From positions 1-64,000 of the forward strand of contig NZ_VOHQ01000014.1 in the NCBI RefSeq assembly GCF_009192765.1: DNA of 64,000 nt, read 5' to 3'. Under the pieces are notes generated by a model. The model had not been told where the DNA came from, did no database searches, and worked only from the letters and a program-made list of their open reading frames with translations. The position numbers and the translations under genes were made by a program. This document shows, in pieces, positions 9,851 through 40,956 of the stretch (positions are counted from its first letter, which is position 1; the number at the start of each line of letters is the position of its first letter). The DNA comes from Agriterribacter humi (lineage in GTDB: Bacteria > Bacteroidota > Bacteroidia > Chitinophagales > Chitinophagaceae).

Positions 9851-10717
9851 ATGAAAAAAATTATTTACGGGCTGATCTTAGCAACCATCTTATTGTATAG
9901 TTCCTGTGCCGTTCAAAAAAATACAGGCAATGCGGCTAAAGAAGAATGGATATCGCTGTTCAATGGCAAAGACCTTAATGACTGGATCGTAAAGATCCAT
10001 CACCATGAAACGGGTGATAATTATGGCAATACTTTTCGCGTGGAAGAGGGTTTGATTAAAGTGCGTTACGACCAGTACGACAGCTTTAATAACCGCTACG
10101 GTCATTTGTATTTTAAACAACCTTTCTCCTACTATCACCTGGTAGTGGAATACCGGTTTACGGGTATATGGCGTAAAGATGCGCCGGAATATACTTTAAA
10201 AAACAGTGGTGTAATGCTTCACTCGCAGGATCCGCGAACCATGCCGCGCGAACAGGACTGGCCCATATCGGTTGAAATGCAGTTCCTGGCGGGGCTGGGC
10301 GATGGGAAGCCGCGTCCTACGGGTAACATGTGTTCGCCGGGAACAGATGTTGTGTACAATGGCAAAATAGATCCGAGGCATTGCATCAATTCTTCATCCC
10401 AAACCTATGAAGGGGAGCAATGGATTAGGGCGGAGGCGATTGTATTGGGCGATTCACTGATCACGCATATTATTAATGGCGATACCGTTTTGCAATATAC
10501 CCAACCACAGATTGGTGGCGGGGTTGCCAATAACTATGATCCCAAAATTAAAATAGACGGGAAATTATTATCATCCGGATTTATAGCGCTGCAAAGTGAA
10601 GGACAGGAAATTGATTTCCGTAAAGTGGAATTACTGAACCTGGAAGGGTGCATGGATCCCAGATCGAAGCATTATAAAAGCTATTTTGTTAAGGATGATC
10701 CATCTGCGTGTGAATGA
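9851..10717 (+). CDS. DUF1080 lipoprotein (3-keto-disaccharide hydrolase type)
   Basis: 288 residues with a lipoprotein signal (MKKIIYGLILATILLYSSC; Cys19). The mature part opens with EWISLFNGKDLNDWIVKI, the standard DUF1080 start, and contains SGVMLHSQDP and VEMQFLAG, aligned with the lectin-like beta-sandwich. It is longer than the protein at 386 because of extra loops and a C-terminal tail with two cysteines (GCMDPRSKHYKSYFVKDDPSACE in outline: C..DP..C). It is probably surface- or periplasm-anchored and acts on glycosides oxidised at C3. The gene stands alone: repeats lie downstream and 154 nt without a clear promoter upstream. Confidence 0.85.
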   Translation: MKKIIYGLILATILLYSSCAVQKNTGNAAKEEWISLFNGKDLNDWIVKIHHHETGDNYGNTFRVEEGLIKVRYDQYDSFNNRYGHLYFKQPFSYYHLVVEYRFTGIWRKDAPEYTLKNSGVMLHSQDPRTMPREQDWPISVEMQFLAGLGDGKPRPTGNMCSPGTDVVYNGKIDPRHCINSSSQTYEGEQWIRAEAIVLGDSLITHIINGDTVLQYTQPQIGGGVANNYDPKIKIDGKLLSSGFIALQSEGQEIDFRKVELLNLEGCMDPRSKHYKSYFVKDDPSACE

Positions 10718-20486: not shown

Positions 20487-21353
20487 TCAAATGACTGAAC
20501 CAGGCCCCGGGCCTGGTTTTTCCTGTTTCCTTTTGTGGAGTGCATTCCATCTTAAATCGAGAAACTTGGCTAACGGACCTACAAGGAAAAGCGCAAAGAA
20601 AGGCGCATATATAAGATTGTTAAGGCGCAAAACAAACTCTGCAATGGCCACCAGGATGGCAACGATAATTCTTCCCTTCCTGGAGGATACAGAGGTGGGA
20701 GGATCTGTGATCATAAAGAAGATAAAAAGCTGGTACATTGGCCCGGTCAGGGGAGACAGTTCCGCAAGAAAAGCATCACCCGTAATCAAACAACGAACAT
20801 AAGCAAGGATAATAAAACTTATTACATATGTAACGGTTACGTGTAACCGTTTTGCCCTGTTCACAATGAGCAGCCCCAAAATCCATATTACGGACATGGC
20901 AAGAAGATTACTTCCCCACTGAATACTAAGACCTGCTACATTCGCGCTATACAAAGCAAGCATCCACGAAATACCAAAGTTTGAAGGATTCCATAAGTGC
21001 CTGTCTTTATAGCGAAATACATATTTGGAGAGAATGGAAAGTAAAGACGTAACAACATAAGGCCAAATTACATTTGAGCGGATGAGTATGCCTACGCTTA
21101 TACCGGTTATATATGCGCTGGCAAGATTTTTCCATGTACCCAATACTATTCTGGCCAATATGATCTCGGCTATCATGGCCGTGGCTATTGCAGCTACCAG
21201 GGTTGTATAGCTGTCTAATATGCCAAACGTAAACTGTCCAACCAGCAGGATAAGCGTGATAAAGGCCGGGGGGATGTACTGAAAGTTATCTTTTAGCCAC
21301 TGAGAGCGGGAAGTTGTTGCGGGTATGTTTTCAAGCTTATATTCCTGCTGCAT
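20487..21353 (-). CDS. RnfD/NqrB-like integral membrane protein
   Basis: 288 residues, about 9-10 hydrophobic helices. RnfD/NqrB signatures are HLWNPSNFGI and MITDPPTS (the conserved NPSxF and TDP boxes of the NQR2/RnfD family). I cannot see a clear S-x-A-T flavinylation motif where RnfD and NqrB carry covalent FMN, so electron transfer is uncertain. None of the other Rnf or Nqr subunits is nearby. The gene's ATG overlaps the TAA of the upstream CRTAC1-type gene (TAATG), so the two are translationally coupled. The final codons (PGPGPGSVI) come from a palindrome. It probably sits in the inner membrane and works with its secreted neighbour. Confidence 0.8.
   Translation of the reverse strand: MQQEYKLENIPATTSRSQWLKDNFQYIPPAFITLILLVGQFTFGILDSYTTLVAAIATAMIAEIILARIVLGTWKNLASAYITGISVGILIRSNVIWPYVVTSLLSILSKYVFRYKDRHLWNPSNFGISWMLALYSANVAGLSIQWGSNLLAMSVIWILGLLIVNRAKRLHVTVTYVISFIILAYVRCLITGDAFLAELSPLTGPMYQLFIFFMITDPPTSVSSRKGRIIVAILVAIAEFVLRLNNLIYAPFFALFLVGPLAKFLDLRWNALHKRKQEKPGPGPGSVI
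20498..20518. repeat. GC-rich perfect palindrome at the gene end
   Basis: Two 10-nt arms (AACCAGGCCC and GGGCCTGGTT) around one C form a perfect inverted repeat. On the + strand it is followed by TTTT, like a Rho-independent terminator, but no + strand gene reads into it. On the - strand it lies within the last codons of the RnfD-like gene and may act as that gene's 3' end structure. Confidence 0.6.
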
Positions 21354-23164
21354 TAGTTATTGGGTTTGCTTTCTTTTATAATATGCAGTTTATTGATTTC
21401 CGGGTTTTCAATTTTGTCTGCATGCCCGGACGGCCAATAAATAACTACCCTGTCAATTTTATCGCTTTTGCCTATTCCAAAATGGAGCCTGTGCTGGTTT
21501 TGGGACGAAAACCCCATACCCCCGGTAACGATCTGCGCCTGTTTCTTTCCATCCCATTCCACCTCCACTCTTGCCCCAATGGCATCGGCATTGGAAATCG
21601 TTCCCTGCAGGTCAAAAGCTATCCAGTGATTATCATTTCCTGCATAATTTTTATAAACTAAAGGGATGTTGTTTTGATTGGCAACAACAACATCCAGTAC
21701 GCCTCTGTTCCACAGATCCGCAATGGCAACAGCGCGCCCATCGTACGTTATTGCAGGACAAACCTTGTCTGATACATCTTCAAATAAGCCATCGCTGTTA
21801 TTCAACCATATTTTGTCCTGCTCATATCCCGACTGGCTTTTGCCTTCCATGTCAGGCCAGTTTTTGGCATCGCCGATAATGGCGCTGTTGCCGCCTGTAA
21901 CTTTAGAATAATCGTACCAGTAGGAAGTATTTTCTTTTGCAGAAATAAAACCATTTGCTACGTATAAATCCATGAAACCGTCATTATTCAGATCGCCGAA
22001 TTGCGCACCATAGCTCCAGCCTGCATTTTCAATTCCTGAAATTTGTGCAAGATCTACAAACGAAGGCTGTTCTGCAGAGCGGTCACTCCTGGGTTGCCAA
22101 TAATTATTTCCCTGGATCAATATTCCCTTTTCCGTAATATTTGTAGTATAAACACCTATATTTCCGTCATTGGCAATATCGCCGAAAGATGCGTTCATGC
22201 CACTTTTGGGGATATGTCCAACGCCTGCCTCTCTGCCTTTTTCTTCAAATCTTTGTCCGTTTTTATTCAAATAAAACTCGTCTACATTATAATCGTTGGC
22301 AATGTATAATTCAGGGTAACCGTCCCCGTTAAAGTCTGCTGCCGCTGCGGCAAGCGTCCATTTGGTTGAAGTTAATCCATACTCATTGGTTACATCTTCA
22401 AATTTGCCATTACCTTTATTCTTTAAAAGAAAGTTCCTGCCGCCATTGTTGGCATACCGGAAGCTTTCAGGCATTATTTTAGTTGTATTCAGACTGTCTA
22501 AGTGAAAAATTTCTTTATAATAGCCTCCTATAAAAATATCAGGCAACCCGTCATTATTAAAGTCGAACCAGATGGCGGAATTGGCGTTTACCCATGCGGG
22601 AAGTCCGCTGCCTTCTGTAACCCGTTCAAATCTTTTTCCCTCTATGTTTTTAAACAACTCCGGTTTCCCCCACTTATACAGGAGCAGGTCTTTAAAACCA
22701 TCGTTATCATAATCGCACCAAACGGCGCCCATTGAAACACCGGAGCCTTTCCTGTTTACGTGTGCCAGTTGCATTTTACCGGCCACGTCTTCAAATTCGC
22801 CATTGTGCAAATTGCGGTATAAGGCATTCTTACTTCCAATTGCGCTGTTGGTAAAATAAATATCATTCCAGCCGTCATTATCAAAATCGCAAATGGAGAC
22901 AGCCGCTCCCATAGAGGCAATTTGCATTTTAATATTATTGAGCTTAGGATCAACTTCAGGAGCAATATGCCTGAATGATATTTTCGCTTCTTTATTTACC
23001 GGCTCAAGATAAAATCCAAATGCTTTTTCTGCTGCTGCTTTCTGCCTGCTGTTGCGCTTAATCGAAAAAAAATCATTATTGCGGGAGGCAACAAATGTTA
23101 TTGCAAGCAGGCAGATAAATATTGCGGTAATAATTATTTTGGTATATTTTTTTGAAGGACTCAT
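21353..23164 (-). CDS. CRTAC1-type protein: VCBS/FG-GAP propeller plus ASPIC/UnbV domain
   Basis: 603 residues from the ATG at 23164 (MSPSKKYTKIIITAIFICLL), giving an N-terminal membrane anchor or signal; a longer frame to 23221 has no such start. At least six VCBS/FG-GAP repeats with Ca-binding D-x-D-x-D-G-type loops: DFDNDGWNDIYF, DYDNDGFKDLLL, DFNNDGLPDIFI, DFNGDGYPELYI, DLNNDGFMDLYV. The ASPIC/UnbV domain closes the chain (GARVEVEWDG, TGGMGFSSQN, RLHFGIG, VVIYWPSG). Such proteins are secreted beta-propellers of unknown function. The stop overlaps the start of the RnfD-like gene, and a 1187-residue relative is divergent upstream. Confidence 0.88.
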   Translation of the reverse strand: MSPSKKYTKIIITAIFICLLAITFVASRNNDFFSIKRNSRQKAAAEKAFGFYLEPVNKEAKISFRHIAPEVDPKLNNIKMQIASMGAAVSICDFDNDGWNDIYFTNSAIGSKNALYRNLHNGEFEDVAGKMQLAHVNRKGSGVSMGAVWCDYDNDGFKDLLLYKWGKPELFKNIEGKRFERVTEGSGLPAWVNANSAIWFDFNNDGLPDIFIGGYYKEIFHLDSLNTTKIMPESFRYANNGGRNFLLKNKGNGKFEDVTNEYGLTSTKWTLAAAAADFNGDGYPELYIANDYNVDEFYLNKNGQRFEEKGREAGVGHIPKSGMNASFGDIANDGNIGVYTTNITEKGILIQGNNYWQPRSDRSAEQPSFVDLAQISGIENAGWSYGAQFGDLNNDGFMDLYVANGFISAKENTSYWYDYSKVTGGNSAIIGDAKNWPDMEGKSQSGYEQDKIWLNNSDGLFEDVSDKVCPAITYDGRAVAIADLWNRGVLDVVVANQNNIPLVYKNYAGNDNHWIAFDLQGTISNADAIGARVEVEWDGKKQAQIVTGGMGFSSQNQHRLHFGIGKSDKIDRVVIYWPSGHADKIENPEINKLHIIKESKPNN

Positions 23165-23367
23165 TGAACAGCTATCATTTGTGCGGACTAAAGATAGTAA
23201 TAATGATACTTGGTATTTCAAATCTTAGCATCATTTCTCCTCCTTACCACGAAAATTCAATGAAGTGAAAGATACCGGCCATAGAAAGGTTTGGGATGCA
23301 TTCTTCTGAATATAAGGGGATAATAATAATTGTTATCTTCGGTATATATAAAATACTCTCACCGGTA

Positions 23368-26300
23368 ATGACACATGCATTTCCCCACTTTACAATACGC
23401 TTATTGATCAGCGCTGTTTTATTTTTGATAATCACCCTGTTTACCCAATGTAAAACAAAAGATGAGGAGGCAAAAAATTACTATAATGACCCCCGCATAC
23501 TGGCCATTTCTTTTCTCCAGAAAAATAAATTTGATGAAGCGGAAGCTGCGTTTAAAAAAGCAATAAAAACCGATCCGGGAAATTTCCTGAACTATGCCGA
23601 TTTAGCCCTGCTTTACCTGGCAAAAAAGGATTATGATGAAGCGGAGAAACAGGTACAGGCGGGCTTAAAAATTCAACCCAACCATACCGGCCTAAAACTC
23701 ACTTTAGCGGAAGTGTATATACGGGAAGGAAATAAAGAAAATGCAGTAAAAGAGTTAAAAAGCGTATTGGCTATTGACTCCGGAAATGCTCCTGCCTGGT
23801 ATAAACTGGCTTTGCTGTCGGCTGCAGAAAAAAATTATCCGGATCAAAAATCCAGCTTATTGCAATTGCTGGATATTACCCCGTCCAATATTGTGCCCCG
23901 GCTTCAGCTATCCGAATTGCTTGCACAGGAAGGAAAATCAGACTCCGCTTTGTTCTTTATGCAAAGCATAAAAAAAATAGTTCCGGAATTTAACCTGGCA
24001 ACAGACAGCATTTACCGGAAGGCTGTAGCGTTGATCACCGCTAACAATCAAACCGCTGATGTTATTCAGTATATACAGAAGTTTCAAAATTTAATGCAGC
24101 TTACCAAAGCCTATGCAAGCGGGCTTGATGAAATAGATCAGCCGAGATTGCTAACAGGCTATGCAGCCTTTAACGACAGCAGGTTTAGCCGGGTTTACGA
24201 CAAAAACAGAATAGTTTCTTTAAACGATATAAAGTTTGAAGATGCTTCACCGATTGCCGGACTAATGATTCCAGGCATTTCCAATATAAAGTCTTCAACA
24301 TTAGCGCTTGCAGACGATGACGGGAAGGGTACCGCATATGTTTTTGCAAGTTTTTTACCTGAAGGCGCTTCGCTCTCAAAGCGTTATTTGTTTGAAGCAG
24401 AAATGTCGAACTTTAAAGACATTACGTCTTCCGTTGATCTTAATTATGAGGCTATTGATTTAGACGCCACGTTTGCAGATTATGATAACGATGGTTACCG
24501 GGATCTTTTTATTTCTACCAGTAAAGGAGTCTTTATTTATAAAAATAATGGCGATGGCACATTTTCCAGAATAAAACAAAAAACGGGCTTAGACGATATT
24601 ACCAATGGCAATAAAATACTGGTTGCGGATTTTGACCAGGATGGAGATCTTGACTTATATATCGCCTGTAAAAGCGACAATAAATTCTTTCGCAATAACA
24701 ATGATGGAACGTTCACCGAAAACGCCAGGATGATGAACCTCTCTGCAGGCACATCAGGAACTATGGATATGGATTATGGAGATTGGGATGCTGATGGAGA
24801 TTTGGATATAGCGGCTTTAACCGGAGAAGGACGGATACAATTATTTAATAATGAGCGGCATTCTAAATTTAAAGATTTTACCGAGGCCTTGCAGCTTCAA
24901 AATCCTTCATATAAAGGTAGCGCCATTGCTTTTGGTGATTACAATAATGACGGTATGCCGGATTTGTTTATTGCCGGGAGTAAAAATGAAAATTCATTTT
25001 TACTAAAAAATACCGGAGATCATGGGTTTAAGGTTGACACAGCATCGCGTGAGTTTACTACCTCATTAAAAGGCACAAAAGCCCATGCTGCCATTTTTTT
25101 TGATTTTGATAACGATGGTTACCAGGATATCCTCGTAACAGGAGTAAATGACGATACATCCAAAAGCGGGGTGCAGCTATTCCATAATAATCTTGCAAAA
25201 GGATTTGCCAATGTTTCGTACCTGCTTCCGCAAACATTAACCCAGGGCAATAAGATAGATATTGCCGACTTTAACTTAGATGGAGATGATGATGTTTTTA
25301 TATCAGGGTCTTCAGGGATATCTTTAATGAGGAATGATGGAGGTCATCTCAATCATTATATGCAGGTACAGTTAACAGGACTTTCCTATGGCAATAATAA
25401 AAACAACAGGTTTGGTATCGGCGCGCAGGTAGAGCTAAAGGCTGGTGACCTGTATCAAACTAAAACGATTAAACGCACACTTGTCAATTTTGGTGTGGGT
25501 ATGCAGGATTCACTTGATGTTGTTCGTATCATTTGGCCCAATGGAACACCGCAACTGATCAATGACCCATCCCGCTGGCAAAGAACACTTGAACAAGAGA
25601 AACTCAAAGGATCCTGCCCGTTTTTATTTACCTGGGATGGGGAGAAATATACTTTTTTAAAGGATATGATGTGGAGAAGCGCCCTGGGGATGCCTTTGGC
25701 GGTAAACGGAAAAGATACGACCTACGCCTTCAGCGATGCTTCGAAAGAATATTTGCTTATTCCGGGCGAAAAGCTGAAGCCAAAAAACAATACCTATTCT
25801 ATCAAAATAACCGAAGAGCTGTGGGAAGCGGTTTATTTTGATAAGGCTGCCCTGGTGGCGGTAGATCATCCCGATTCGGTTGATGTGTTTGCGGATGAAC
25901 GTTTTGTTGCGCCGCCTTTCCCCGGTAAGCAATTGTATGGGGTAGGGAAGAAGCATTTACCGGTTACGGCCTTCGATGGAAATGGCAATGACCTGCTGCC
26001 CAAAATTAAATCATACGATTTCGAACACATCTCCAACTTTGGTATGGGTAAATACCAGGGGCTTGCTGAAGATCATGATTTGATCCTTGATCTTGGAGAC
26101 AAAGCGGTGAGTGACAGTCTTTACCTGTTTTTGCGGGGATGGACCTTCCCTGCAGACGCCAGCATCAACACAGCAATGACCCAGTCGGCATCCTACAAAA
26201 GCAAGCCTCCGGCCCTGCAGGTGATGAACAAAAAAGGAGAATGGCAAACCATTATAGCAAATATTGGTTTCCCGATGGGAAAAGACAAAATGGTTATCGT

Positions 26301-26931
26301 TAACCTTTCGGGTAAATTTCTTATCCCGGGCAACAGGAAAGTAAGAATACGCACCAATATGCAGATTTACTGGGACGAGATATTCTTTTCAAACCGTTTA
26401 TCGAAAGCCCCGGTAAATATGCATGATCTTACCATGACAGGCGCGCATCTTGCTTACAGGGGTTATTCGGCTTCCTATAGAAAGGGCGGGCCTTTTGGTC
26501 CGCACTGGTTCGACTATTATAATACCACCGGCGGGCAGAAATGGAGAGACCTTACAGGATATTATACCCGTTACGGAGATGTGTTGCCGCTGTTGCAGCA
26601 GGCAGATGACGCGTATGTTATTGCCAACTCAGGCGATGAAATAACGATTGATTTTGATGCGGCCCGTTTACCTGTATTGCCGCGGGGGTGGAAGCGCGAC
26701 TTCCTCATTTACAGTGAAGGATGGGTAAAGGATGGTGATTTGAATACCGCCCATGGGCAAACGGTTGAACCGCTGCCTTTTCATAATATGCCTGCCTATC
26801 CTTATCGCGGTAATGTAAAATATCCTGCAGATGCGAAGCACAACCAGTACCGGCAGCAATACAATACCCGGTTAATAAACACCGATGATTTTAAGAATGC
26901 GCTAAAGCCGAAGGGAGGGATAAAACATTGA
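23368..26931 (+). CDS. TPR + VCBS/FG-GAP + ASPIC/UnbV lipoprotein, 1187 aa
   Basis: The ATG at 23368 gives a lipoprotein-like signal (SAVLFLIITLFTQC; the residue before Cys is unusual). Four or so TPRs cover about residues 40-190 (FLQKNKFDEAEAAFKKAIKT). VCBS loops follow at about 370-700 (DYDNDGYRDLFI, DFDQDGDLDLYI, DWDADGDLDIAA, DYNNDGMPDLFI, DFDNDGYQDILV, DFNLDGDDDVFI), then ASPIC/UnbV (GIGAQVELKAGDL, VVRIIWPNG). The last 430 residues begin with GSCPFLFTWDGEKYTFLKD and form a further beta-rich region seen in similar large proteins. It is divergent from the CRTAC1/RnfD-like pair, so a shared regulatory region of about 200 nt is likely. Outer-membrane or surface location is inferred; the function is unknown. 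Confidence 0.88.
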   Translation: MTHAFPHFTIRLLISAVLFLIITLFTQCKTKDEEAKNYYNDPRILAISFLQKNKFDEAEAAFKKAIKTDPGNFLNYADLALLYLAKKDYDEAEKQVQAGLKIQPNHTGLKLTLAEVYIREGNKENAVKELKSVLAIDSGNAPAWYKLALLSAAEKNYPDQKSSLLQLLDITPSNIVPRLQLSELLAQEGKSDSALFFMQSIKKIVPEFNLATDSIYRKAVALITANNQTADVIQYIQKFQNLMQLTKAYASGLDEIDQPRLLTGYAAFNDSRFSRVYDKNRIVSLNDIKFEDASPIAGLMIPGISNIKSSTLALADDDGKGTAYVFASFLPEGASLSKRYLFEAEMSNFKDITSSVDLNYEAIDLDATFADYDNDGYRDLFISTSKGVFIYKNNGDGTFSRIKQKTGLDDITNGNKILVADFDQDGDLDLYIACKSDNKFFRNNNDGTFTENARMMNLSAGTSGTMDMDYGDWDADGDLDIAALTGEGRIQLFNNERHSKFKDFTEALQLQNPSYKGSAIAFGDYNNDGMPDLFIAGSKNENSFLLKNTGDHGFKVDTASREFTTSLKGTKAHAAIFFDFDNDGYQDILVTGVNDDTSKSGVQLFHNNLAKGFANVSYLLPQTLTQGNKIDIADFNLDGDDDVFISGSSGISLMRNDGGHLNHYMQVQLTGLSYGNNKNNRFGIGAQVELKAGDLYQTKTIKRTLVNFGVGMQDSLDVVRIIWPNGTPQLINDPSRWQRTLEQEKLKGSCPFLFTWDGEKYTFLKDMMWRSALGMPLAVNGKDTTYAFSDASKEYLLIPGEKLKPKNNTYSIKITEELWEAVYFDKAALVAVDHPDSVDVFADERFVAPPFPGKQLYGVGKKHLPVTAFDGNGNDLLPKIKSYDFEHISNFGMGKYQGLAEDHDLILDLGDKAVSDSLYLFLRGWTFPADASINTAMTQSASYKSKPPALQVMNKKGEWQTIIANIGFPMGKDKMVIVNLSGKFLIPGNRKVRIRTNMQIYWDEIFFSNRLSKAPVNMHDLTMTGAHLAYRGYSASYRKGGPFGPHWFDYYNTTGGQKWRDLTGYYTRYGDVLPLLQQADDAYVIANSGDEITIDFDAARLPVLPRGWKRDFLIYSEGWVKDGDLNTAHGQTVEPLPFHNMPAYPYRGNVKYPADAKHNQYRQQYNTRLINTDDFKNALKPKGGIKH

Positions 26932-26955
26932 TAACAACTTAAAACGTAAAAAAGG

Positions 26956-26976
26956 AAATCCTGCAGGGATGTAACA
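26956..26976 (+). repeat. REP-like palindrome before the IS200-type transposase
   Basis: ATCCTGCAGGGAT (26958-26970) followed by GTAACAT stands immediately before the transposase ATG. The same motif, as ATCCCGTAGGGAT with GTAACA or ATAATA after it, recurs twice downstream of the gene. Confidence 0.7.
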
Positions 26977-26977
26977 T

Positions 26978-27440
26978 ATGGCTAACACTTACACACAAGT
27001 TCATCTTCAATTTGTATTTGCCCCCAAATACAGAGCATCTCTCATAAGTAGTAGTTGGGAGAACGACCTGCATAAATACATTACGGGTATCGTGCAAACC
27101 AATAAACATAAGCTGGTTGTTATAAAATGGAATGCCCGACCATGTACACATGCTTGTTGGTTTTAGAGCTACTCAATCTATGGCTGATTTTATGCAGGAC
27201 GTAAAAGCAGGCTCATCCAAATGGATAAATGATAACAAGTACTGCAAAGAGCGGTTTGAGTGGCAAGCCGGATATGGAGCATTTTCATATTCAAAATCCC
27301 AACTGCCTGATGTGATAAGCTATATCAAAAATCAAAAAGAGCATCACCGTAAGAAAACCTTTTTGGAAGAATATAAGTTGTTTTTGGAAAAATTTGAAGT
27401 GGAGTATGATGAAAGGTATGTTTTTCAAGAGCCGGAATAA
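26978..27440 (+). pseudogene. frameshifted IS200-type (REP-associated) tyrosine transposase
   Basis: The first frame (MANTYTQVHLQFVFAPKYR ... HKLVVIK) breaks at an A-run (27124-27127). One base too many there shifts the frame, and the product continues in the next frame with GMPDHVHMLVGF to the end (YDERYVFQEPE). Joined, the two parts give about 154 residues, normal for an IS200-type TnpA. The HUH motif (HVH in MPDHVHML) and the catalytic tyrosine region (DVISYIKNQKEHH) are intact. Slippage on the A-run could restore a little product, but the simplest reading is an inactivated copy. REP-like palindromes flank it on both sides, as expected for a REP-associated transposase. No TnpB is present. 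Confidence 0.85.
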
Positions 27441-27626
27441 GTATCATGCCTACGGCATTGGTGGGGGTGTGGGTTTGGTGAGTTACCGATGTGATATGCC
27501 TATCGGCATATAGGTGAGGTGTAAACGTGTGGTGCAAAAATCTTGTTATGGTAATATCCAAAAATCCCGTAGGGATATAATATAGGTAAGATGTAAATAA
27601 GAAAGTCTGATAATCCCGTAGGGATG
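27441..27626 (+). repeat. cluster of four REP-like palindromes
   Basis: Two palindromes of one type (ATGCCTACGGCAT at 27445-27457; ATATGCCTATCGGCATAT at 27494-27511) are followed by two of a second type (ATCCCGTAGGGAT at 27564-27576 and 27613-27625). The second type matches the motif ahead of the transposase. All have arms of 5-7 nt and a 3-4 nt centre with a TA/CG core. Confidence 0.75.
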
Positions 27627-27944
27627 TAACAGATAAGAATCTGCTTTCACGGCAAATACGAATAGACAAAGTATCGAATGAATTGTTTAACACGGCTCAC
27701 CATTATATTAAAGAGTATTATTAATGACCAATCCACCAAGTCAGGCACATTTGCAGGGCATATAGCCGACACACAAAAGCTAACCCTGGAAAAGAGCCTG
27801 CCTTGTTCTATACTTCCGGAACACACCCTGCTTCATTGGACACGGTATGAAGTTTGACCGAGCAAGATGAAGGGTGAACGTGCAACATGGGATCGAAGGG
27901 AATTCTATTGGCCCACTTCGGAAAGCCCTGTCCGGTAAGCTATA
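27627..27944. other. 318-nt spacer without a recognisable gene
   Basis: Both strands show only short frames with no family resemblance. The right part (27860-27930) has a higher GC content and looks like decayed coding or mobile sequence, but I cannot identify it. No terminator with a clear T-run is visible after the three-gene operon ending at 27945. Confidence 0.4.
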
Positions 27945-29459
27945 TCACAATGCGGCCACGGTATGATAATACATGTTTTTCGACAGCGGGTCTAACAACC
28001 CTGCTGTATTAAAAGGTTTTATCCTTTCTCTTACCATGCTGGTAAACTGATCTGCATCTTTTGCTGAGATGGTTCTTTGTGCGGTTAATTTCAGCAGATC
28101 CTTATATGTTGTTTGTACTATCTTTTGTACTTCCTGGTTATCAGCTTCAAGAAAATATTTAACTGGCTGATTCTTCAAGCGGCGTTGCTCATACAAAATG
28201 GTAAAAGTGAAATACAACATGGACCAGGCATTGAAAAGTTGAAAATGCTGCATGGTTGCGTAACATCCGGCAACAAGTATATCAATAAGCTTAAGCTCTT
28301 CAAAAGTAATATGCTCATATTCCTTCAACTGTTCAAATAAGCGTTCATCAAAGTTGCTGTTCTCAGAAAGCATCTGTACGATCCGTTCAATGCCGGCCAG
28401 GGAATAGGCTATGCCTGTGCTGAAAAGCGGATCTACAAACCCAATGGTATGCGGCATTGCGAGCCATCCATCGCCAAAACATTTTTCCAGCTTTCGCTGA
28501 AGTCTTCCCGTTTGTATAATGCGCCCCGGTTGTGGTGATAAAGAACCACTTTTGAGTATATGATCTATATCAGGATACGTGGCCCTCATTCTATCCCATA
28601 TCTCCGTTGTCTTCATTTTTTGAAATGAAGCATCATTGCCATTCAAAGCAAATCCCCAGCTTGTCCGGTTATTGTTAAAACGAAGCGCCCAAACCCATCC
28701 TTCATCCAGCACGTGATGTAATGCGGAATCATCAGGATCATAAGGATAATCCTGCGTTGGAATATTGTTTTGTTCCAGGAGCGTTGTCCATCGTGGAAGA
28801 TGATCAAAATGAGAGAACAGTGCAAAGGAGTTGGTAAGAAAACCGGCTGCGGATGACTTCGCAGCAAACAGTTTATCAGCCAGTATACCGCTACCCGTTG
28901 CATCTATAAAAAAAGAGGAATGAATGGATGGTATATTCCCCGGCCCATTTATATTGAACAGCCATTGCCTGTTGCTTCTTCTTGCAGAAGTGATCTCAGT
29001 ACAATCGAAATACTCTATATTGTATGCTTTAACCTTGCTGACTAAAAAAGCATCAAAATCTGCACGCAGCCAGTTGGTGTCGGACATGATATCATCTGCG
29101 CTTGCCGCAACAAGCAGCTCATTGGTATGCCCGGCATCCGTTGAAAATTGCTTCCCGGGATGATGCTTAAAATAACTAAACCCTCTTTTAATACCGCAAA
29201 CAATTTCGGGATGGGATTGTTGCCAGCTACCATATCTCGAAAAATCATATAACCAGGGCAAGTCATATTGTACGGAAAGAGAACGTAATATAATATCCGC
29301 GACAGGAGTTGAAGATTCGCCAATTGCAAAACGCGGATGCTTTCCCTTTTCAATTAAACAAACGGTAAGCCCGCAGTTGTGTAAGGCAAGAGCGGTGATA
29401 GCGCCCGTAAAACCGGAGCCGGCAATTACAATATCATATTGGTTGGAATGGGTACTCAT
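27945..29459 (-). CDS. flavin-dependent halogenase-like FAD oxidoreductase
   Basis: 504 residues from the ATG at 29459; 26 nt overlap with the radical SAM gene. N-terminal FAD motif IVIAGSGFTGAITALAL, then the halogenase-type IGESSTP box. A lysine at the position of the catalytic Lys of tryptophan halogenases is suggested by CGIKRGFSYFKH. The halogenase WxWxIP motif is degenerate (EGWVWALRF: both Trp kept, Ile-Pro replaced). FAD contacts late in the chain are in GFVDPLFSTGIAYSLAG. This places it in the tryptophan-halogenase/CmlS-like superfamily, but with doubt about true halogenation; monooxygenase or dehydrogenase activity is equally possible. It is the last gene of the operon beginning at 31711. 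Confidence 0.75.
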   Translation of the reverse strand: MSTHSNQYDIVIAGSGFTGAITALALHNCGLTVCLIEKGKHPRFAIGESSTPVADIILRSLSVQYDLPWLYDFSRYGSWQQSHPEIVCGIKRGFSYFKHHPGKQFSTDAGHTNELLVAASADDIMSDTNWLRADFDAFLVSKVKAYNIEYFDCTEITSARRSNRQWLFNINGPGNIPSIHSSFFIDATGSGILADKLFAAKSSAAGFLTNSFALFSHFDHLPRWTTLLEQNNIPTQDYPYDPDDSALHHVLDEGWVWALRFNNNRTSWGFALNGNDASFQKMKTTEIWDRMRATYPDIDHILKSGSLSPQPGRIIQTGRLQRKLEKCFGDGWLAMPHTIGFVDPLFSTGIAYSLAGIERIVQMLSENSNFDERLFEQLKEYEHITFEELKLIDILVAGCYATMQHFQLFNAWSMLYFTFTILYEQRRLKNQPVKYFLEADNQEVQKIVQTTYKDLLKLTAQRTISAKDADQFTSMVRERIKPFNTAGLLDPLSKNMYYHTVAAL

Positions 29460-30435
29460 ATTTGATTTTGCAGGTGCACGGTATGGTATCTTCAATCTGC
29501 TGGCTGAGGTTCATGGTTTCTAAGCGTCTTTTTCTCTCATCAAAACAATGAGGGCATTTTGATAAAAAGCCGATATCCCATGTATCTGCAAACACCTGTC
29601 CCTGTTGCAACAACAGCGCTTTTTCAAGAACCTCTTCCAGCATAGCCAGGGAAGGTGGTGTGTATTCATTGTTTTTCCACAACAGCTCCATTACACCGTT
29701 CCCGGGCCGTACAGGAATAACGGCACAGCGTATTGCTCCGCAGTCAAAGGCAAATTGTATGGTTTTAAGCGCCCATGCTACATTTTCACCGGCATCAGTG
29801 ATATAAGGAGGATTTAAAAGTACAAAGGACCTTACATCTATACCATGGTGGTTTAAAAATGCAGTTGCTTTTTTAAAATCCTCCGGCGTGATTTGTTTAT
29901 TGAGTTTCGGCAGCGACTTGGGATGAATCGTTTCCAGCCCCATTGCTATTTCCAGCTTTCCGTTAAGCAGGTTGTTAAATTCAATACAGGAATGATTGCA
30001 GAGTTTGGGGTGATTTTCTACAATCACCTTTTTATAATCCCTGAGTCGTTTGGATATTGCCGGGTAGTCCTCAGGAGAAATAGCTTTCGTGTCAAAAAAG
30101 TTTCCGTTGTTGTACAGCTTGATAACATCAGCCTTCGGTAATCTTTCCAAAGCATGATCAATCTGCTGCACAATGGTGCCTGCCGGTGCAGGTTCATCCA
30201 GCGTATTCTTCCACAAATCACACATCAGGCATTTAAAAGCACATTCTTTGCCGGTAAGAAAGATGGTGTTTACGGTTTCGATGTTACCCGGTAAACCGGG
30301 TTCCCGCTCATGCAAAAAATGATAAGGGACAAACGGGTTTAACCTGTTTTTGGGAGGGCGAAGTTCAGCTATAGTGCGACTGTCGTAACCATCATGCATA
30401 CAGCGAATGGAAATAGGTTCTGTATTCTTTTTCAT
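29434..30435 (-). CDS. radical SAM enzyme
   Basis: 333 residues from MKKNTEPIS; overlaps the upstream asparagine-synthetase-like gene by 44 nt and the downstream FAD gene by 26 nt. The CX3CX2C cluster motif is CAFKCLMC in NTIFLTGKECAFKCLMCD. A radical-SAM half barrel follows (KLYNNGNFFDT; the ELGLET-like MGLETIHPKSL; SFVLLNPPY). The C-terminal part has four more cysteines (KCPHCFDERKRR and IPCTCKIKY), which could bind a further Fe-S cluster or zinc. No SPASM name can be assigned with certainty. The substrate is unknown; the context points to modification of the product of the neighbouring amide-forming enzyme. Confidence 0.8.
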   Translation of the reverse strand: MKKNTEPISIRCMHDGYDSRTIAELRPPKNRLNPFVPYHFLHEREPGLPGNIETVNTIFLTGKECAFKCLMCDLWKNTLDEPAPAGTIVQQIDHALERLPKADVIKLYNNGNFFDTKAISPEDYPAISKRLRDYKKVIVENHPKLCNHSCIEFNNLLNGKLEIAMGLETIHPKSLPKLNKQITPEDFKKATAFLNHHGIDVRSFVLLNPPYITDAGENVAWALKTIQFAFDCGAIRCAVIPVRPGNGVMELLWKNNEYTPPSLAMLEEVLEKALLLQQGQVFADTWDIGFLSKCPHCFDERKRRLETMNLSQQIEDTIPCTCKIKYEYPFQPI

Positions 30436-31711
30436 TGTTGGCAAAAATCCCCGAAAAGGCGTCCGGTGGTACCGCGCCGGCCTGGAATCTTCGCTTTTCA
30501 AAAACGGGCATATCAAAACCGGTTACCGCTTTTATACCGCGGCTTACCACTTCGCCCTTTAATGCGTATAGCACTTCTTCATTCCAGTTGGTGAGCGCTA
30601 TAAAAGGAATACCTTCAGCTACCTCAATTACATTGGGTAAAGCATAAGGACTAAATCCTTTAAATCCATATTTTCTGGCGGGGGCGTAGGTGCGCACATG
30701 TCCGCGGCTCTGCCCGCCGGAATAGGTAAGGGAATGTTTTATTTTATCCACGCCCCATCCCTCCTGGTAAAGCATTGTATTACTCAGTACGCTGCGAATA
30801 GTTAGCTCGGGGTTTGCCTCTATGGGGTAATCCTTCAGGTTTTCGTCACCGCCCTCTCCATCTGCCAGGTGTTCCCAGTCGGGGTACAATTGCCGTATCT
30901 GCCTGCAAAGTGCCAGCGCCATAGTTGCAGATTCAAGGTCAAGCGTTTTATAATCTTCAATAACCCCGATGGCGTCTTTATAGTTAACGGCCGACAAAGG
31001 CACATCAATAACCTCAAGAAAAAGAGACAAGCCCAGTTGATCCATAAATGTATGCGCCTGGTCGGCATCCGCGCCGCCGTTTGCGGAAAGCGTAAAGGCT
31101 TTTAACCGCTGTGGCGACATCCCCAGCTTTAGCATTAAATGATACAGCACTAAAAAAACCGAACCGCTGTCAATCCCCCCGGAGAATAAAACGCCTACAG
31201 GCGCTTCTTCCGGAAGAGACAAAAGCCATTTCTGACATTCGTTGGATAATGTTTCAATGTATTTTTTGCCGATGGCATCAATATCTGCCGGAAGCGTATT
31301 TCTTTTGGGTTCAAAAAACCGGGTGTAAACAGGATTGGGATCGGGGCAACCGATAACCTCAAGCCTTACTACAAAATGCGCAGGAACCATCCTGGTGTAG
31401 GAAGGATGAAATTGTTTGTGAAGCCCTTTTTGCCTAAGGTATTCATAAATCTCATCCATGCGTTCGGCTACAATAAGCAATGGTCCTGAAGTTTGCTTGG
31501 CAAGGAAATAACGCATAGGGCGGCCTATTGAACGGGCCATAAATACCTGCTGCCCTACTTTTTCCACTATAGCAAACTGTCCGTCAATTTTACGTACGGC
31601 TGCGGGATCACCTGAAATAATTGCCGCAGACGCTTCTTCGGGGGTCATGTTAAGAATGATATTGCTGCTGTGGTCGAGAAGGCTTATAAAATCGGTTACA
31701 TACTGGTTCAT
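30392..31711 (-). CDS. asparagine-synthetase-like ATP-dependent amide-forming enzyme
   Basis: 439 residues from MNQYVTDFISLL (the ATG at 31738 would precede the likely transcription start). The C-terminal half is an Asn-synthase PP-loop ATPase: GVLFSGGIDSGSVFLVL and HLADGEGGDENLKDYP. The N-terminal domain (DGQFAIVEK..., ARSIGRPMRYFLA) resembles the glutaminase fold, but the nucleophilic Cys2 is missing, as in beta-lactam synthetase. It therefore probably uses free ammonia or an internal amine, forming an amide or lactam. It opens a three-gene operon with 44-nt overlap into the radical SAM gene. True AsnB is around 550 residues, so this is a diverged, shorter relative. Confidence 0.8.
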   Translation of the reverse strand: MNQYVTDFISLLDHSSNIILNMTPEEASAAIISGDPAAVRKIDGQFAIVEKVGQQVFMARSIGRPMRYFLAKQTSGPLLIVAERMDEIYEYLRQKGLHKQFHPSYTRMVPAHFVVRLEVIGCPDPNPVYTRFFEPKRNTLPADIDAIGKKYIETLSNECQKWLLSLPEEAPVGVLFSGGIDSGSVFLVLYHLMLKLGMSPQRLKAFTLSANGGADADQAHTFMDQLGLSLFLEVIDVPLSAVNYKDAIGVIEDYKTLDLESATMALALCRQIRQLYPDWEHLADGEGGDENLKDYPIEANPELTIRSVLSNTMLYQEGWGVDKIKHSLTYSGGQSRGHVRTYAPARKYGFKGFSPYALPNVIEVAEGIPFIALTNWNEEVLYALKGEVVSRGIKAVTGFDMPVFEKRRFQAGAVPPDAFSGIFANNEKEYRTYFHSLYA

Positions 31712-31735
31712 GACATCATATATTTTCTTCCGGAA

Positions 31736-31743
31736 CAAATGTA
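31736..31743 (-). promoter_or_regulatory. -7 promoter element of the three-gene operon
   Basis: Read on the - strand the sequence is TACATTTG, a fit to TAnnTTTG, 24 nt before the chosen ATG at 31711. It supports that start over the one at 31738. Confidence 0.5.
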
Positions 31744-37141: not shown

Positions 37142-38281
37142 TTAAAACGGTTCACCATGTGTTTGTTTTATCAGCCGGTCAACTATGGAGGGAAAAGGTT
37201 GCAGCGCCTGTATGAAATAATTGGTTACCCATTCCCTGCCAAACAGCCCCTGTATCCGGCGGCCGGCTTTCAACCTTTTTTTAAATGTATTGTTCCAGTT
37301 GATTTGATAGGCAATTTCCATTTCCTGGCGGCTTATCTTTCCCTGTAGAAAAGGATGGATTTGCCGGAAGGCTATCTTACTGCCATGCATCGCCATGCTC
37401 ATACCGTTACCGCATAGCGGGGCAATCATTCCGGCCGCATCGCCCGTCATAAGCATGTGATGCTCCAGTTGTGTTTTTTTATCAAAGCTCACCTGTGCAA
37501 TGGTAACGGGCGATGTATACAAAAAAGTGGAGTTGCCGAAGATCCTATTCAAATAAGGATTACGCCGCAATATATTTTGCTCTAACTGTGCAATGGAGTT
37601 ATCGCATTGCTGCAGGTTTTGTGCAGTGGTAAGATAGCAGAGGCAATATTTCTCATCCTCCACCTGCGATATGCCGCAATACCCGTTTTCAAAATTGTGA
37701 AGCGCTATAAGATCTGGCGGAAAATCCGTTTTAATATGATATTTGACGGCAATATAGTTATTGAGCTTACCCGGTTTCTTTTGAATGAAATCACGTTTCA
37801 GTTTGATATCCAAGTTACTGCGTTTGCCAAATGTGCCGCACACCAATTTGGCTTTGCACATATCCGTTCCGTATTGCACATGAAAATGCGCATCGCTGAA
37901 CCATACATTATCTACTTTTGTTTCTTCCATTATTTCGGCTCCTGCATTCCGGGCCAGTTCAGCGAGGAAGGCATCTAACTTGTAACGGCTGATACCGAAA
38001 CCACCCAGGGGCAGGCGCCGCTTAATCGTTTTACCCGAAGGGGAGGATACCATAAGATTCCTGATATGGGGCAGGTTCCAGTCGCTCAATGGCACGCCTG
38101 TTTCTTCCAGGAAATTCCAGCATTCAAAGCTTATATATTCGCCACACACTCTGTGAAAAGGATATTTTTCTTTCTCGAATAATATTACACGATGCCCCTC
38201 TCTTGCCAATTGAACAGAAAGGCAGAGCCCCGCCAGCCCACCACCCACGATGGCTACATCGTATATGTTATTTGTTGTCAT
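37142..38281 (-). CDS. FAD-dependent oxidoreductase of the type III PKS cluster
   Basis: 379 residues from the ATG at 38281, which overlaps the methyltransferase stop (ATGA). FAD-binding motifs: VAIVGGGLAGLCLSVQLAR, EKEKYPFHRVCGEYIS, and MTGDAAGMIAPLCGNGMSMAM near residue 270-290. It belongs to the geranylgeranyl-reductase/aromatic-ring hydroxylase (PHBH-like) branch. In the PKS context it is a likely hydroxylase turning a resorcinol ring to a quinone or hydroquinone, as SrsC does in Streptomyces griseus, or else a reductase of the prenyl chain. It is the last gene of the cluster. Confidence 0.82.
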   Translation of the reverse strand: MTTNNIYDVAIVGGGLAGLCLSVQLAREGHRVILFEKEKYPFHRVCGEYISFECWNFLEETGVPLSDWNLPHIRNLMVSSPSGKTIKRRLPLGGFGISRYKLDAFLAELARNAGAEIMEETKVDNVWFSDAHFHVQYGTDMCKAKLVCGTFGKRSNLDIKLKRDFIQKKPGKLNNYIAVKYHIKTDFPPDLIALHNFENGYCGISQVEDEKYCLCYLTTAQNLQQCDNSIAQLEQNILRRNPYLNRIFGNSTFLYTSPVTIAQVSFDKKTQLEHHMLMTGDAAGMIAPLCGNGMSMAMHGSKIAFRQIHPFLQGKISRQEMEIAYQINWNNTFKKRLKAGRRIQGLFGREWVTNYFIQALQPFPSIVDRLIKQTHGEPF

Positions 38282-38973
38282 GAAGTTGCTGTTATCAGCC
38301 ATCGGAAAGCCCATTTCCATTCAACTGAGCAGGATTTGATTCCTGCCCGCTGCATGATCGTTTCCCATTCTTTTCTTTTAAATCCGCGCCGAACGGAAAG
38401 CGGGGCGTCATTTTTTACAAGATAACTGTTTGACAACAATTTTGTGAGCCATTTAATCGAATAATACGCAAAAAAATTACGGTGCAGATCATTGACGAAA
38501 AAACCCATGCGGCAATTGTCATGCATCCATTGCATCATTAACACCAGCGCATCATCGCTGAAATGATGACAGAAAAGGGAAGAAAAAATAATGTCGGGTT
38601 TTTGATGAAAAAAATTCACCTGCTGATAATCCGAAACGATCCAGGTATATCTTGTATCAGCGGTTTTTTCTTTTGCAAAATCAATGCATTCTTTTTTTTT
38701 ATCAATGCCTGTCAGATGAACGGAGATATTGTTTTTTACACACCACTTGTCAATCGCCAGTAAATTATCGCCGCCGCCGCAGCCCGCTTCACAAATACGG
38801 ATGGGTTTACCGGTTGTTTTTGATGCGGATAGTATTTTCTGTACTCCCGATAGGGTAATGGAATGCCCGCCCAGCCAGCGATTAATGAAATCCAGTTCTT
38901 TCATGTTCTGTTTGATGTCTTCAAACGGAATATCATCATTATCTAATAGTTCTGTTTGGGTTGAACGCGACAT
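38278..38973 (-). CDS. SAM-dependent methyltransferase of the type III PKS cluster
   Basis: 231 residues. Class I methyltransferase fold: motif I is IRICEAGCGGGDNLLAI (E/DxGxGxG), acidic motif II region SVHLTGIDKKKECIDFA, then TRYTWIVSDYQQV and DIIFSSLFCHHF. It probably methylates the polyketide ring (O- or C-methylation). The stop overlaps the start of the FAD oxidoreductase gene (ATGA) and the start lies 17 nt after the PKS stop. The C-terminal about 70 residues (AYYSIKWLTKLLSNSYLVK...) look like a lipid- or substrate-specific cap. Substrate assignment is by context only. Confidence 0.85.
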   Translation of the reverse strand: MSRSTQTELLDNDDIPFEDIKQNMKELDFINRWLGGHSITLSGVQKILSASKTTGKPIRICEAGCGGGDNLLAIDKWCVKNNISVHLTGIDKKKECIDFAKEKTADTRYTWIVSDYQQVNFFHQKPDIIFSSLFCHHFSDDALVLMMQWMHDNCRMGFFVNDLHRNFFAYYSIKWLTKLLSNSYLVKNDAPLSVRRGFKRKEWETIMQRAGIKSCSVEWKWAFRWLITATS

Positions 38974-38990
38974 AAAAAGTATTGAGCAAA

Positions 38991-40079
38991 TTAGATAAGC
39001 TCTCCCACAAATGTTTCCATCGTTAGTCCCGGGCCAAAAGCGGCGCCTAATATTTTATGATTCATGCCCGATGGTTTTTGCATCATACGCTTTAATACAA
39101 ATAAAATGGTAGGGGAAGACATGTTGCCAAATTGTTCCAGTATATTAAAGCTATCATCCAGTTCGGTATCATCCAGGTGAAGGCATTTTTTAACGGCTTC
39201 CAGTATGCGCTTTCCTCCGGGATGTATGCACCATCCTTTGATCTGTTCCTTACGAATGCCTGCTGATTGCATCGCCCTGGCGATCAACAGTTCAAAATCT
39301 TCTTCTATCAGTTCAGGTATATAACCGCTTAAGGTCATTAGAAACCCGGAAGAAGACAATTCCCATGCCATATCCTTTTTGCCTTTAGGCATGATCTCCG
39401 CATAAAAATGTTGTAGTTCCAGTCCGGGCGAAGGGTATTGATCATGTGTTACCAGTGCCGCAGCGGAGCCGTCTGCAAACAACATGCTGGAAGTAATGTT
39501 ATCTATAGTAGCTTCCTTTTGGAAATGCAGCGTGCACAGCTCGGTGCAAACAATCATTACTCTGGCGGCGGTATCGTTTTTGCAAATGGCATCCGCTATT
39601 TTCAGCGCATGAATAGCGGCATAGCAACCCATAAAATTTATGGAAGTACGGTAAATGGTATTGGGCAGGTCCATGAGGTCTATGATCTGTAAATCAAGCC
39701 CGGGGGCACTCATGCCTGTGCAACTTACTGTAATCAAATGCGTGATTTGTTTTGCAGGCAATTTATTTTCTATACAATTTCTTATGGCATCAACCGACAG
39801 CGGAGCTGCATATTTGTTGTACAATGCCATGCGTTGTTCCAATGCCGGGAAGGGTTCTAAGTTTTCGCTCCGCGGATAAAATTTCCAGTCTTTTACAGGC
39901 CGGTTATAATCTCCAATAACAGAATACCTGTTTTGAATGCCACTTTGATGGTACAGGAACTTCATTTTCCTTTGTTCAGTGGTATTGGTAGCGTATACCT
40001 GCTGCATAAAGTCCAAAATGCCTTCCTGCTGGTGTTTATAATGCGGCAGCGCTGTTCCTATATGTATGATTTTACTCAA
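38991..40079 (-). CDS. type III polyketide synthase (chalcone/stilbene-synthase-like)
   Basis: 362 residues, normal length. The catalytic Cys-His-Asn triad is visible: Cys in LITVSCTGMSAPGLDLQ, His in WCIHPGGKRILEAV, Asn in LEQFGNMSSPTILFV. The C-terminal AFGPGLTMETFVGEL closes the thiolase fold. It condenses malonyl-CoA units onto an acyl starter, and bacterial members of this kind make alkylresorcinols or alkylpyrones. The start overlaps the UbiA stop by 8 nt, so the cluster is coupled from the first gene. Starter specificity cannot be read here, but the membrane-bound UbiA partner suggests a lipid-like product. Confidence 0.95.
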   Translation of the reverse strand: MSKIIHIGTALPHYKHQQEGILDFMQQVYATNTTEQRKMKFLYHQSGIQNRYSVIGDYNRPVKDWKFYPRSENLEPFPALEQRMALYNKYAAPLSVDAIRNCIENKLPAKQITHLITVSCTGMSAPGLDLQIIDLMDLPNTIYRTSINFMGCYAAIHALKIADAICKNDTAARVMIVCTELCTLHFQKEATIDNITSSMLFADGSAAALVTHDQYPSPGLELQHFYAEIMPKGKKDMAWELSSSGFLMTLSGYIPELIEEDFELLIARAMQSAGIRKEQIKGWCIHPGGKRILEAVKKCLHLDDTELDDSFNILEQFGNMSSPTILFVLKRMMQKPSGMNHKILGAAFGPGLTMETFVGELI

Positions 40080-40956
40080 AGTGGTTGATTATAAAAATAA
40101 TGATAAAAGCGATGTTTATGCATATGGAAGCGACCATGTTCATGCGCATCGTATTCCTGTAATCAGCATAGATATAATTGTGCCATACTTTACGGGCCCA
40201 CATTAAAAAGTAAACGATCACCGGCAACATGCACAAACTGAATATATAAAATGCTTTTGTTTGGAGTGTATAAAAAAAATAAAGCGCCAGCACCAGGAAT
40301 GCTGCTGTATATATAATTCCACAGTACACAAAAGTTCCCCGGTAACCCAGGCGGTAACTAATGGTTTTAACGCCGTCTTTAAGGTCTGCATCGTGCTGGT
40401 ATACTTGTGTGAGCGGGTAAAATCCTCCAATGAGCAAACTGGATGATATCATTGCCAAAACAGGAACCTGCAATGTTTTATCTGCACTGCAGCCATGATA
40501 AATTAATCCGAATGTTACGGCGCCCTGGAACAGGATAACGGTTATATAGCCGGCAAACGGGTATTTTTTTAAACGGATGCCCCTGTAGCTGTACGCTTTA
40601 GAAACCAGTATATACAATAATATTCCCAAAGCGAAATACAGGCTGATAAAACAACTCATGATCATAGCAACACTATCCATCAGCACCGTTGTATATAAAA
40701 GCTGACGCGAAGGTTGCATCGGGTGCTGAACGCCTCCAATGCTTTCCGTATCCCTGTCCATATAACTGTTATAGCCATTGCTTGCGGGGTACAGCAGCAA
40801 ATGCAGTATCATAAAAACCAGTACGGTGTGAAATATATTTACTTCAACCACCTGGCTCAGTGCGAACCAGTATACCGGCATCAGGAAAAAAGAAAAAGGA
40901 AAACGCAACAATTGAATAGTGGAGGGCAATAGGAATTGTGTTTTCGTTACCGGCAT
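40072..40956 (-). CDS. UbiA-family prenyltransferase
   Basis: 294 residues, eight or so membrane helices. The two Asp-rich substrate motifs are present in variant form: NGYNSYMDRDTESIG (first; N..N...D.D) and YQHDADLKDGVKTISYRLG (second). They coordinate Mg and the prenyl diphosphate. The enzyme is integral in the inner membrane and would attach an isoprenoid chain to an aromatic acceptor, most likely the polyketide made by the next gene. It begins the four-gene cluster. The upstream 217 nt hold no gene and I see no clean TAnnTTTG box. Ubiquinone or menaquinone biosynthesis is less likely given the PKS neighbour. Confidence 0.88.
   Translation of the reverse strand: MPVTKTQFLLPSTIQLLRFPFSFFLMPVYWFALSQVVEVNIFHTVLVFMILHLLLYPASNGYNSYMDRDTESIGGVQHPMQPSRQLLYTTVLMDSVAMIMSCFISLYFALGILLYILVSKAYSYRGIRLKKYPFAGYITVILFQGAVTFGLIYHGCSADKTLQVPVLAMISSSLLIGGFYPLTQVYQHDADLKDGVKTISYRLGYRGTFVYCGIIYTAAFLVLALYFFYTLQTKAFYIFSLCMLPVIVYFLMWARKVWHNYIYADYRNTMRMNMVASICINIAFIIIFIINHFE

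Follow-up and report, generated by a model that had tools for sequence, protein, structure and literature searches.

What do three overlapping genes of Agriterribacter humi make together, and which part of the cell would use the product? The question is raised by positions 1 to 64,000 of contig NZ_VOHQ01000014.1 (NCBI RefSeq assembly GCF_009192765.1; this whole stretch is called the window below), where an asparagine-synthetase-like enzyme (ASNB), a radical S-adenosylmethionine (SAM) enzyme (RSAM) and a halogenase-like flavin enzyme (FAD) are encoded in a row. A preliminary description, made from the letters of the window alone, had read them as a three-gene operon on the minus strand, and we have reproduced its coordinates, its strand and both of its overlaps, 44 nt for ASNB/RSAM and 26 nt for RSAM/FAD. 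Our answer, which is tentative and falls somewhat short of an even chance, is that the trio forms one cytosolic small-molecule pathway serving an envelope module of RnfD-like, UnbV-like and TPR/VCBS/ASPIC proteins. The basis in hand is a conserved operon, conserved catalytic residues and a co-occurrence with the envelope module. The three genes of the trio are as follows.

30392..31708, minus strand: ASNB, an asparagine-synthetase-like ATP pyrophosphatase of 438 aa, with a shortened glutaminase half without the nucleophile Cys

29434..30435, minus strand: RSAM, a radical SAM enzyme of the RaSEA-like branch, 333 aa

27945..29459, minus strand: FAD, a PltM/CtcP-type flavin-dependent halogenase-like enzyme, 504 aa

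We have compared the window with 30 relative loci (31 loci in total). The contig scan used two peptide patterns and returned 30 close and 3 distant loci; it missed most of the later members from the class of Fodinibius and is no census. ASNB adjoins RSAM in all 29 loci with sequence there, and the remaining 2 of the 31 end on that side. FAD follows RSAM directly in 26 of the 31, and since one of the misses is a contig end, this amounts to 26 of 30 assessable loci. Carriers of the trio locus include Parafilimonas terrae, Mucilaginibacter lappiensis, Dyadobacter luticola, Fodinibius roseus and Thermoflavifilum thermophilum. In a Gemmatimonadetes metagenome-assembled genome (MAG; L045), the contig breaks off within RSAM, so that only ASNB and the first part of RSAM are visible. 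An alternative RSAM start (MHDG, at 30399 here), common to many homologues, gives an overlap of 8 nt, and if the RSAM start is set, at each of the 27 loci with both genes, to the start codon closest to the end of ASNB, 8 nt is the commonest value (14 loci), with any overlap in 23 and a distance within 4 nt in 25.

Among 98 relatives, RSAM is present in 8, ASNB in exactly those 8, and a close FAD (at least 50%) in the same 8; all of them carry the three genes in a row, in one genome (G018) with a 333-nt gap before RSAM. RSAM is also found in 51 of 244 genomes of the class of F. roseus (G109). This Fodinibius class, which also contains the Rhodothermales MAG L041, we take to be GTDB Rhodothermia; NCBI puts F. 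roseus in Balneolia. In the window's own class RSAM is rare (2 of 395 genomes). These RSAM counts leave out one weak match (G700, E 1.3e-5). The full trio is present in all 22 of the 51 genomes that were inspected (12 plus 14 loci with 4 genomes in both; G108, G109 and G111 are also within the 31 loci), being contiguous in 18 and interrupted in 4, where a single antisense gene separates ASNB from RSAM. Such a gene stands at L094–L097, and the sole one identified, in L094, is capsule Wzi-like.

The pairwise identities of ASNB, RSAM and FAD correlate at 0.90–0.96 over 22 loci, a range that shared species ancestry alone could give. Conservation is highest for ASNB, with a mean pairwise identity of 0.76 versus 0.61 for RSAM and 0.57 for FAD (22 loci). 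Overall, the trio is an old unit, kept together in Chitinophagaceae, Mucilaginibacter, Dyadobacter and the Fodinibius class. The preliminary idea of a single pathway is supported by this cohesion in distantly related bacteria, and the search for co-occurring homologues that had been proposed with it has found them not scattered but with their partners kept, apart from four loci without an adjacent FAD. Three MAGs (L046–L048; Microgenomates, Curtissbacteria and Peregrinibacteria) have more distant radical SAM relatives, and beside each of these a protein of ~290 aa is encoded that all three have in common.

The first enzyme matches Pfam Asn_synthase at 40.9 bits. It shares with asparagine synthetase B the PP-loop, the acidic residue in DG(D/E)GGDEN and the C-terminal Lys (equivalence judged by eye), and differs from it in having no Cys2, in a glutaminase half that is shortened since the PP-loop starts at residue 176, and in a score of 38.4 bits against TIGR01536 (glutamine-dependent asparagine synthetase), far under the cut-off of 267.1, although 28/28 family members match this model. 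In the family alignment, SxGIDSGS, DG(D/E)GGDEN, K384 and KRR405-407 are invariant in 28/28, and an N-terminal Cys nucleophile is found in none of the 28 sequences. A missing Cys2 beside a kept PP-loop, SGGIDSGS in the window copy, was thus correctly seen at the outset.

The comparison with beta-lactam synthetases that had been attached to it is not supported. Beta-lactam and carbapenam synthetases resemble ASNB as AsnB-type enzymes without a working glutaminase, and differ from it at one residue: we take their catalytic Tyr to stand where AsnB has Glu348, matched to ASNB position 285, and here the 28 family sequences have Asp (25) or Glu (3), acidic as in asparagine synthetase. Because the residue is acidic instead of Tyr, we have dropped the lactam synthetase identity.

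RSAM carries CxxxCxxC (C65/C69/C72), invariant in 28/28, and a C-terminal CxxC...C (C294, C297 and C320, in 26/28 each) with a fourth Cys usual, which agrees with the radical SAM enzyme with four extra cysteines described before. It reaches 21.7 bits with Pfam Radical_SAM, under the cut-off of 29.5, and a PDB sequence search with the RSAM profile gave nothing credible. No curated family other than RaSEA (TIGR01210) is matched by every one of the 28 members. The window copy covers model positions 8–301 of 313 at 107.5 bits, about half of the curated cut-off of 212. The lowest E-value in the family, 5e-32, differs little from that of the window copy. Other models are matched by a few members, namely MnmL/YtqA (TIGR01212) by 4/28, PhpK by 2/28 and HpnJ by 1/28. 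MnmL strips the glycine carbons from 5-carboxymethylaminomethyluridine (cmnm5U). As for RaSEA, PMC11298593 describes that it converts preQ0-lysine in tRNA to archaeosine and is found in complex with ArcS, the enzyme that transfers the lysine, and that ammonia, Asn and Gln are not used by ArcS of three species. The likeness to this pair is that RSAM fits the model over nearly its full length and that a candidate partner for attaching a nitrogen donor is encoded ahead of it; the differences are the score at half of the cut-off, a partner that is AsnB-like instead of ArcS, and the additional halogenase-like enzyme.

FAD matches PF04820 Trp_halogenase at 49 bits, over the cut-off of 21. Its nearest PDB relatives are PltM (1.1e-41) and tetracycline 7-halogenase (3.6e-28) when the single sequence is used (residues 3–430), and the same two rank first with the family profile (3.1e-61 and 3e-50). 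With the phenolic halogenases PltM and CtcP, its best PDB relatives, it shares GxGxxG, a GESSTP-like box and the catalytic Lys. K91 aligns with PltM Lys87 and is invariant in 25/25; the K87A mutant of PltM is inactive (PMC6424973) and Lys98 of CtcP corresponds to PltM Lys87 (PMC12400496). The GESSTP box and degraded WxWxIP of the preliminary description have both been found again, as GESSTP in 25/25 and as WxWxLR in 25/25. The latter differs from the PltM/CtcP enzymes, and PltM itself reads WLWVIP. Unlike in that comparison, no flavin reductase is seen within the trio operon. Given its best relatives and the invariant equivalent of Lys87, FAD appears from its sequence to resemble a true halogenase more closely than its degraded motif implied.

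What would such a pathway serve? A second module of the window (20487–26931), absent from the preliminary description, is tied to the trio. It comprises the following genes.

23296..26931, plus strand: BIG, 1211 aa, with TPR, FG-GAP/VCBS and ASPIC/UnbV domains (Pfam) and its own C-terminal domain of ~450 aa

21353..23164, minus strand: a UnbV/CRTAC1-like FG-GAP and ASPIC/UnbV protein (PF07593 UnbV_ASPIC, 80.2 bits), judged by eye to have a membrane anchor at its N-terminus

20487..21353, minus strand: RnfD, an RnfD/UnbU-like membrane protein of 288 aa (PF03116 NQR2_RnfD_RnfE, 40.6 bits)

BIG is lipoprotein-like by eye. The UnbV-like protein matches cartilage acidic protein 1 in the PDB (4.4e-13), and its gene adjoins RnfD in relatives. 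Another FG-GAP/ASPIC-UnbV protein is encoded at 61046–64000 and runs past the window end. The C-terminal domain of BIG is present in 30/30 RSAM-carrying genomes that were reached (8 relatives and 22 further ones). Among the 98 relatives, it occurs in the same 8 as RSAM plus one weak match, and a close RnfD (at least 66%) in exactly the 8. Close orthologues alone are counted here as module RnfD; the distant homologues in trio-less relatives show 26–38% identity and have other partners in both loci read. The two modules are unlinked yet co-retained, standing on separate contigs in G018 and 72–81 kb apart in G004, and the RnfD-UnbV-BIG genes form a separate cluster in several Fodinibius-class loci. 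Since RnfD and BIG are co-retained, the trio product may act at the envelope.

In the 22 further RSAM genomes, which do not include L020, BIG is found in 22 and RnfD in 17 (partial matches in G104 and G111 counted). Within the Fodinibius class, BIG is present in 47 of the 51 genomes with RSAM and in 38 of the 193 others (Fisher p 4e-22, ignoring shared ancestry), and the total of 85 takes in short partial matches, those of G581, G582, G561 and G689 among them. In the window's class, BIG gives 3 strong and 5 weak matches in 395 genomes. Overall, the trio goes with the module, but the module does not always go with the trio.

Based on the above analyses, we infer each reaction, the reaction order, the substrate and the envelope action of the product. 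ASNB would activate a carboxylate as an acyl-adenylate and join it to a free amine, most likely that of an amino acid. RSAM would then cleave a C–N bond and remove the carbon skeleton of the amino acid, so that the nitrogen stays, or else make another radical change on the adduct. RaSEA, the closest curated relative of RSAM, takes away an amino acid carbon chain and leaves the nitrogen in place, and ASNB, unable to derive ammonia from glutamine, would suit as its partner by using an amino acid that RSAM then strips. FAD would halogenate or hydroxylate an electron-rich, probably phenolic ring. Finally, the product would exit the cytosol, and the envelope proteins would use or oxidise it.

On the other hand, several observations weigh against such a pathway. 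Free ammonia could also serve ASNB, and PMC11298593 mentions a fourth species whose ArcS does use ammonia, Asn or Gln. To carry the RaSEA reaction over to RSAM is a lead only, because RSAM reaches half of the cut-off. FAD is truly non-adjacent in L032, L042, L043 and L044 (judged at the locus, not elsewhere in those genomes), so the halogenation step is not universal at the locus. RnfD is absent from 5 of the 22 further RSAM genomes. In the Fodinibius class, 38 of the 85 BIG carriers are without RSAM, and 4 of the 51 RSAM genomes (G551, G559, G572 and G660) give no BIG match; G287, a strong BIG carrier of the window's class, has no RSAM match either. Lastly, the cluster has no constant gene for a carrier protein, a precursor peptide or an exporter.

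These points leave room for other explanations. The trio alone might make a halogenated, antibiotic-like specialised metabolite, with the envelope proteins serving for export, for self-protection or for nothing in this context. A PltM-type enzyme with the catalytic Lys would fit, and a major facilitator superfamily (MFS) gene lies near the trio in L022, L032, L036 and L038 (the L036 copy matches organic-cation/aromatic-acid MFS models, below cut-offs). The unlinked co-retention of RnfD and BIG suggests that these are more than bystanders, however, and when 34 loci were clustered, no protein family apart from the module genes recurred in more than 5 of them. We regard this explanation as fairly unlikely. 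The trio may instead produce a diffusible redox cofactor or prosthetic group for the VCBS-repeat envelope proteins BIG and UnbV, which genomes with BIG and no trio would take up. The comparison is with PQQ, which serves beta-propeller dehydrogenases. RSAM is seldom found without BIG and BIG often without RSAM, as expected of a maker and a user, although any optional accessory pathway would show the same asymmetry. A cofactor is also consistent with the genes near RnfD-UnbV-BIG, namely a SusD-family gene in 6 of 26 loci read (Pfam identity checked in L089 only) and, in L108, genes for a cupredoxin/DUF7133 protein, a 3-keto-disaccharide hydrolase and a LacI regulator, with cluster mates in L088 and L109. 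Against it, we know of no cofactor of UnbV/CRTAC1 proteins, and the C-terminal domain of BIG has no credible relative of known structure in a PDB sequence search. We regard the cofactor explanation as unlikely. Two 3-keto-disaccharide hydrolases (PF06439), the family seen in L108, are also encoded in the window at 386–982 and 9851–10717.

A cofactor could also be built inside a protein, as by QhpD/QhpG, so that the trio would be a maturase modifying residues of BIG or UnbV themselves. The co-occurrence of the trio with BIG would fit, peptides are the substrates of some AsnB-like enzymes, for example lasso cyclases, and QhpG is the best NCBIfam match of FAD. This match amounts to 57.8 bits versus a cut-off of 240, however, and an unrelated flavin enzyme of the window (37142–38320) scores higher on QhpG. 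RSAM is RaSEA-like, with no SPASM-type family among its matches, and BIG is probably exported (by eye). As to the precursor peptide and B-type protease that accompany a lasso cyclase, a screen of open reading frames (ORFs) of at least 90 aa showed no further protein family common to most loci. If a modified residue of BIG were lost along with the trio, an alignment column should tell, but none is conserved in the 25 carrier sequences and altered in the 13 non-carriers (no RSAM match in the genome searches); the only column flagged, 604, has Leu in non-carriers and is mixed in carriers. The same result is what a free cofactor would give. We regard a maturase as very doubtful. A role in modifying tRNA or other nucleic acids, like that of RaSEA and MnmL, is highly improbable for the trio. 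The window RSAM has two NCBIfam matches at E <=0.001, both to tRNA-modification radical SAM families, but both lie below their cut-offs, and PhpK and HpnJ are matched by members as well. The sporadic spread of RSAM (8/98 relatives, 2/395 in the window's class), the coupling to envelope proteins and the phenol-type halogenase partner do not fit such a role.

We return to the small-molecule pathway and to its surroundings in the window. Between the convergent FAD and BIG genes stands one feature outside the system.

26932..27944, no strand assigned: a RAYT transposase remnant with repeats like repetitive extragenic palindromes (REP)

Both the repeats and the transposase remains had been noticed before, with the suggestion of recent transfer. 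The remnant is a partial Y1_Tnp ORF (27132–27440, profile 49–121 of 121). The REP-like 13-mer ATCCCGTAGGGAT has 6 matches with at most 2 mismatches in the window versus 1.0 expected, a number reached in 1 of 100 shuffles; 4 of the 6 lie at 26958–27625, and palindromes surround the truncated RAYT (26957–27629). In the congener G006, this stretch is absent and FAD and BIG are ~20 nt apart versus ~1 kb in the window. The trio is a neighbour of atpD in G000 and G001; at the contig end of G006, 97 nt match as far as the start of atpD. Because of this synteny with atpD, and because the RAYT/REP stretch of ~1 kb was inserted locally, we have abandoned recent transfer. The GC content of the trio is unremarkable (0.443 versus 0.424 for the window). 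As for the promoter proposed ahead of the operon, a -7-like box, TACATTTG, is indeed present at 31743–31736, but the nearest TTTG lies 39 nt farther upstream, a spacing off consensus, and the pattern TTTG-N17-23-TANNTTTG has no match anywhere in the window.

A minus-strand operon at 37142–40956 encodes a geranylgeranyl-reductase-like flavin enzyme, a methyltransferase, a type III polyketide synthase (PKS) and a UbiA prenyltransferase-like protein. A geranylgeranyl-reductase-like gene is also near the trio in G006 and was seen at no other locus read. This type III enzyme (38991–40079) is the only PKS in the window, which bears on the comparison with enediyne clusters. There, an enediyne PKS is accompanied by UnbL, UnbU and UnbV, and the UnbU/UnbV cassette is part of an iodinating, desaturating pathway. 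The window resembles it in that a UnbV_ASPIC protein and an RnfD-like membrane protein, which we take to be related to UnbU, are encoded side by side. It differs in having no PKS of enediyne size: such a PKS is larger than 1211 aa, the length of BIG, which is the longest ORF of the window.

The superfamilies of the three enzymes are known, while their combination is undescribed in the papers searched. Our search of open-access literature, which for some topics covered the best-ranked papers, found no description of the trio combination and, in the same scope, nothing on UnbV within the enediyne iodinating cassette. To our knowledge, the function of the UnbV/CRTAC1 family is poorly understood. 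A bolder version of our reading, which we consider distinctly unlikely, is that the trio builds a new extracytoplasmic cofactor or halogenated mediator via glutamine-free amidation, in which the AsnB-like ligase and radical C–N cleavage would supply nitrogen from an amino acid, and that RnfD-UnbV-BIG is a membrane redox machine using it. If this is true, the CRTAC1/UnbV family would gain a biochemical role outside enediyne clusters. The unit links an archaeal-tRNA-type branch of radical SAM enzymes, a phenol-type halogenase and UnbV/CRTAC1 proteins, and offers a genetically tight and testable pathway.

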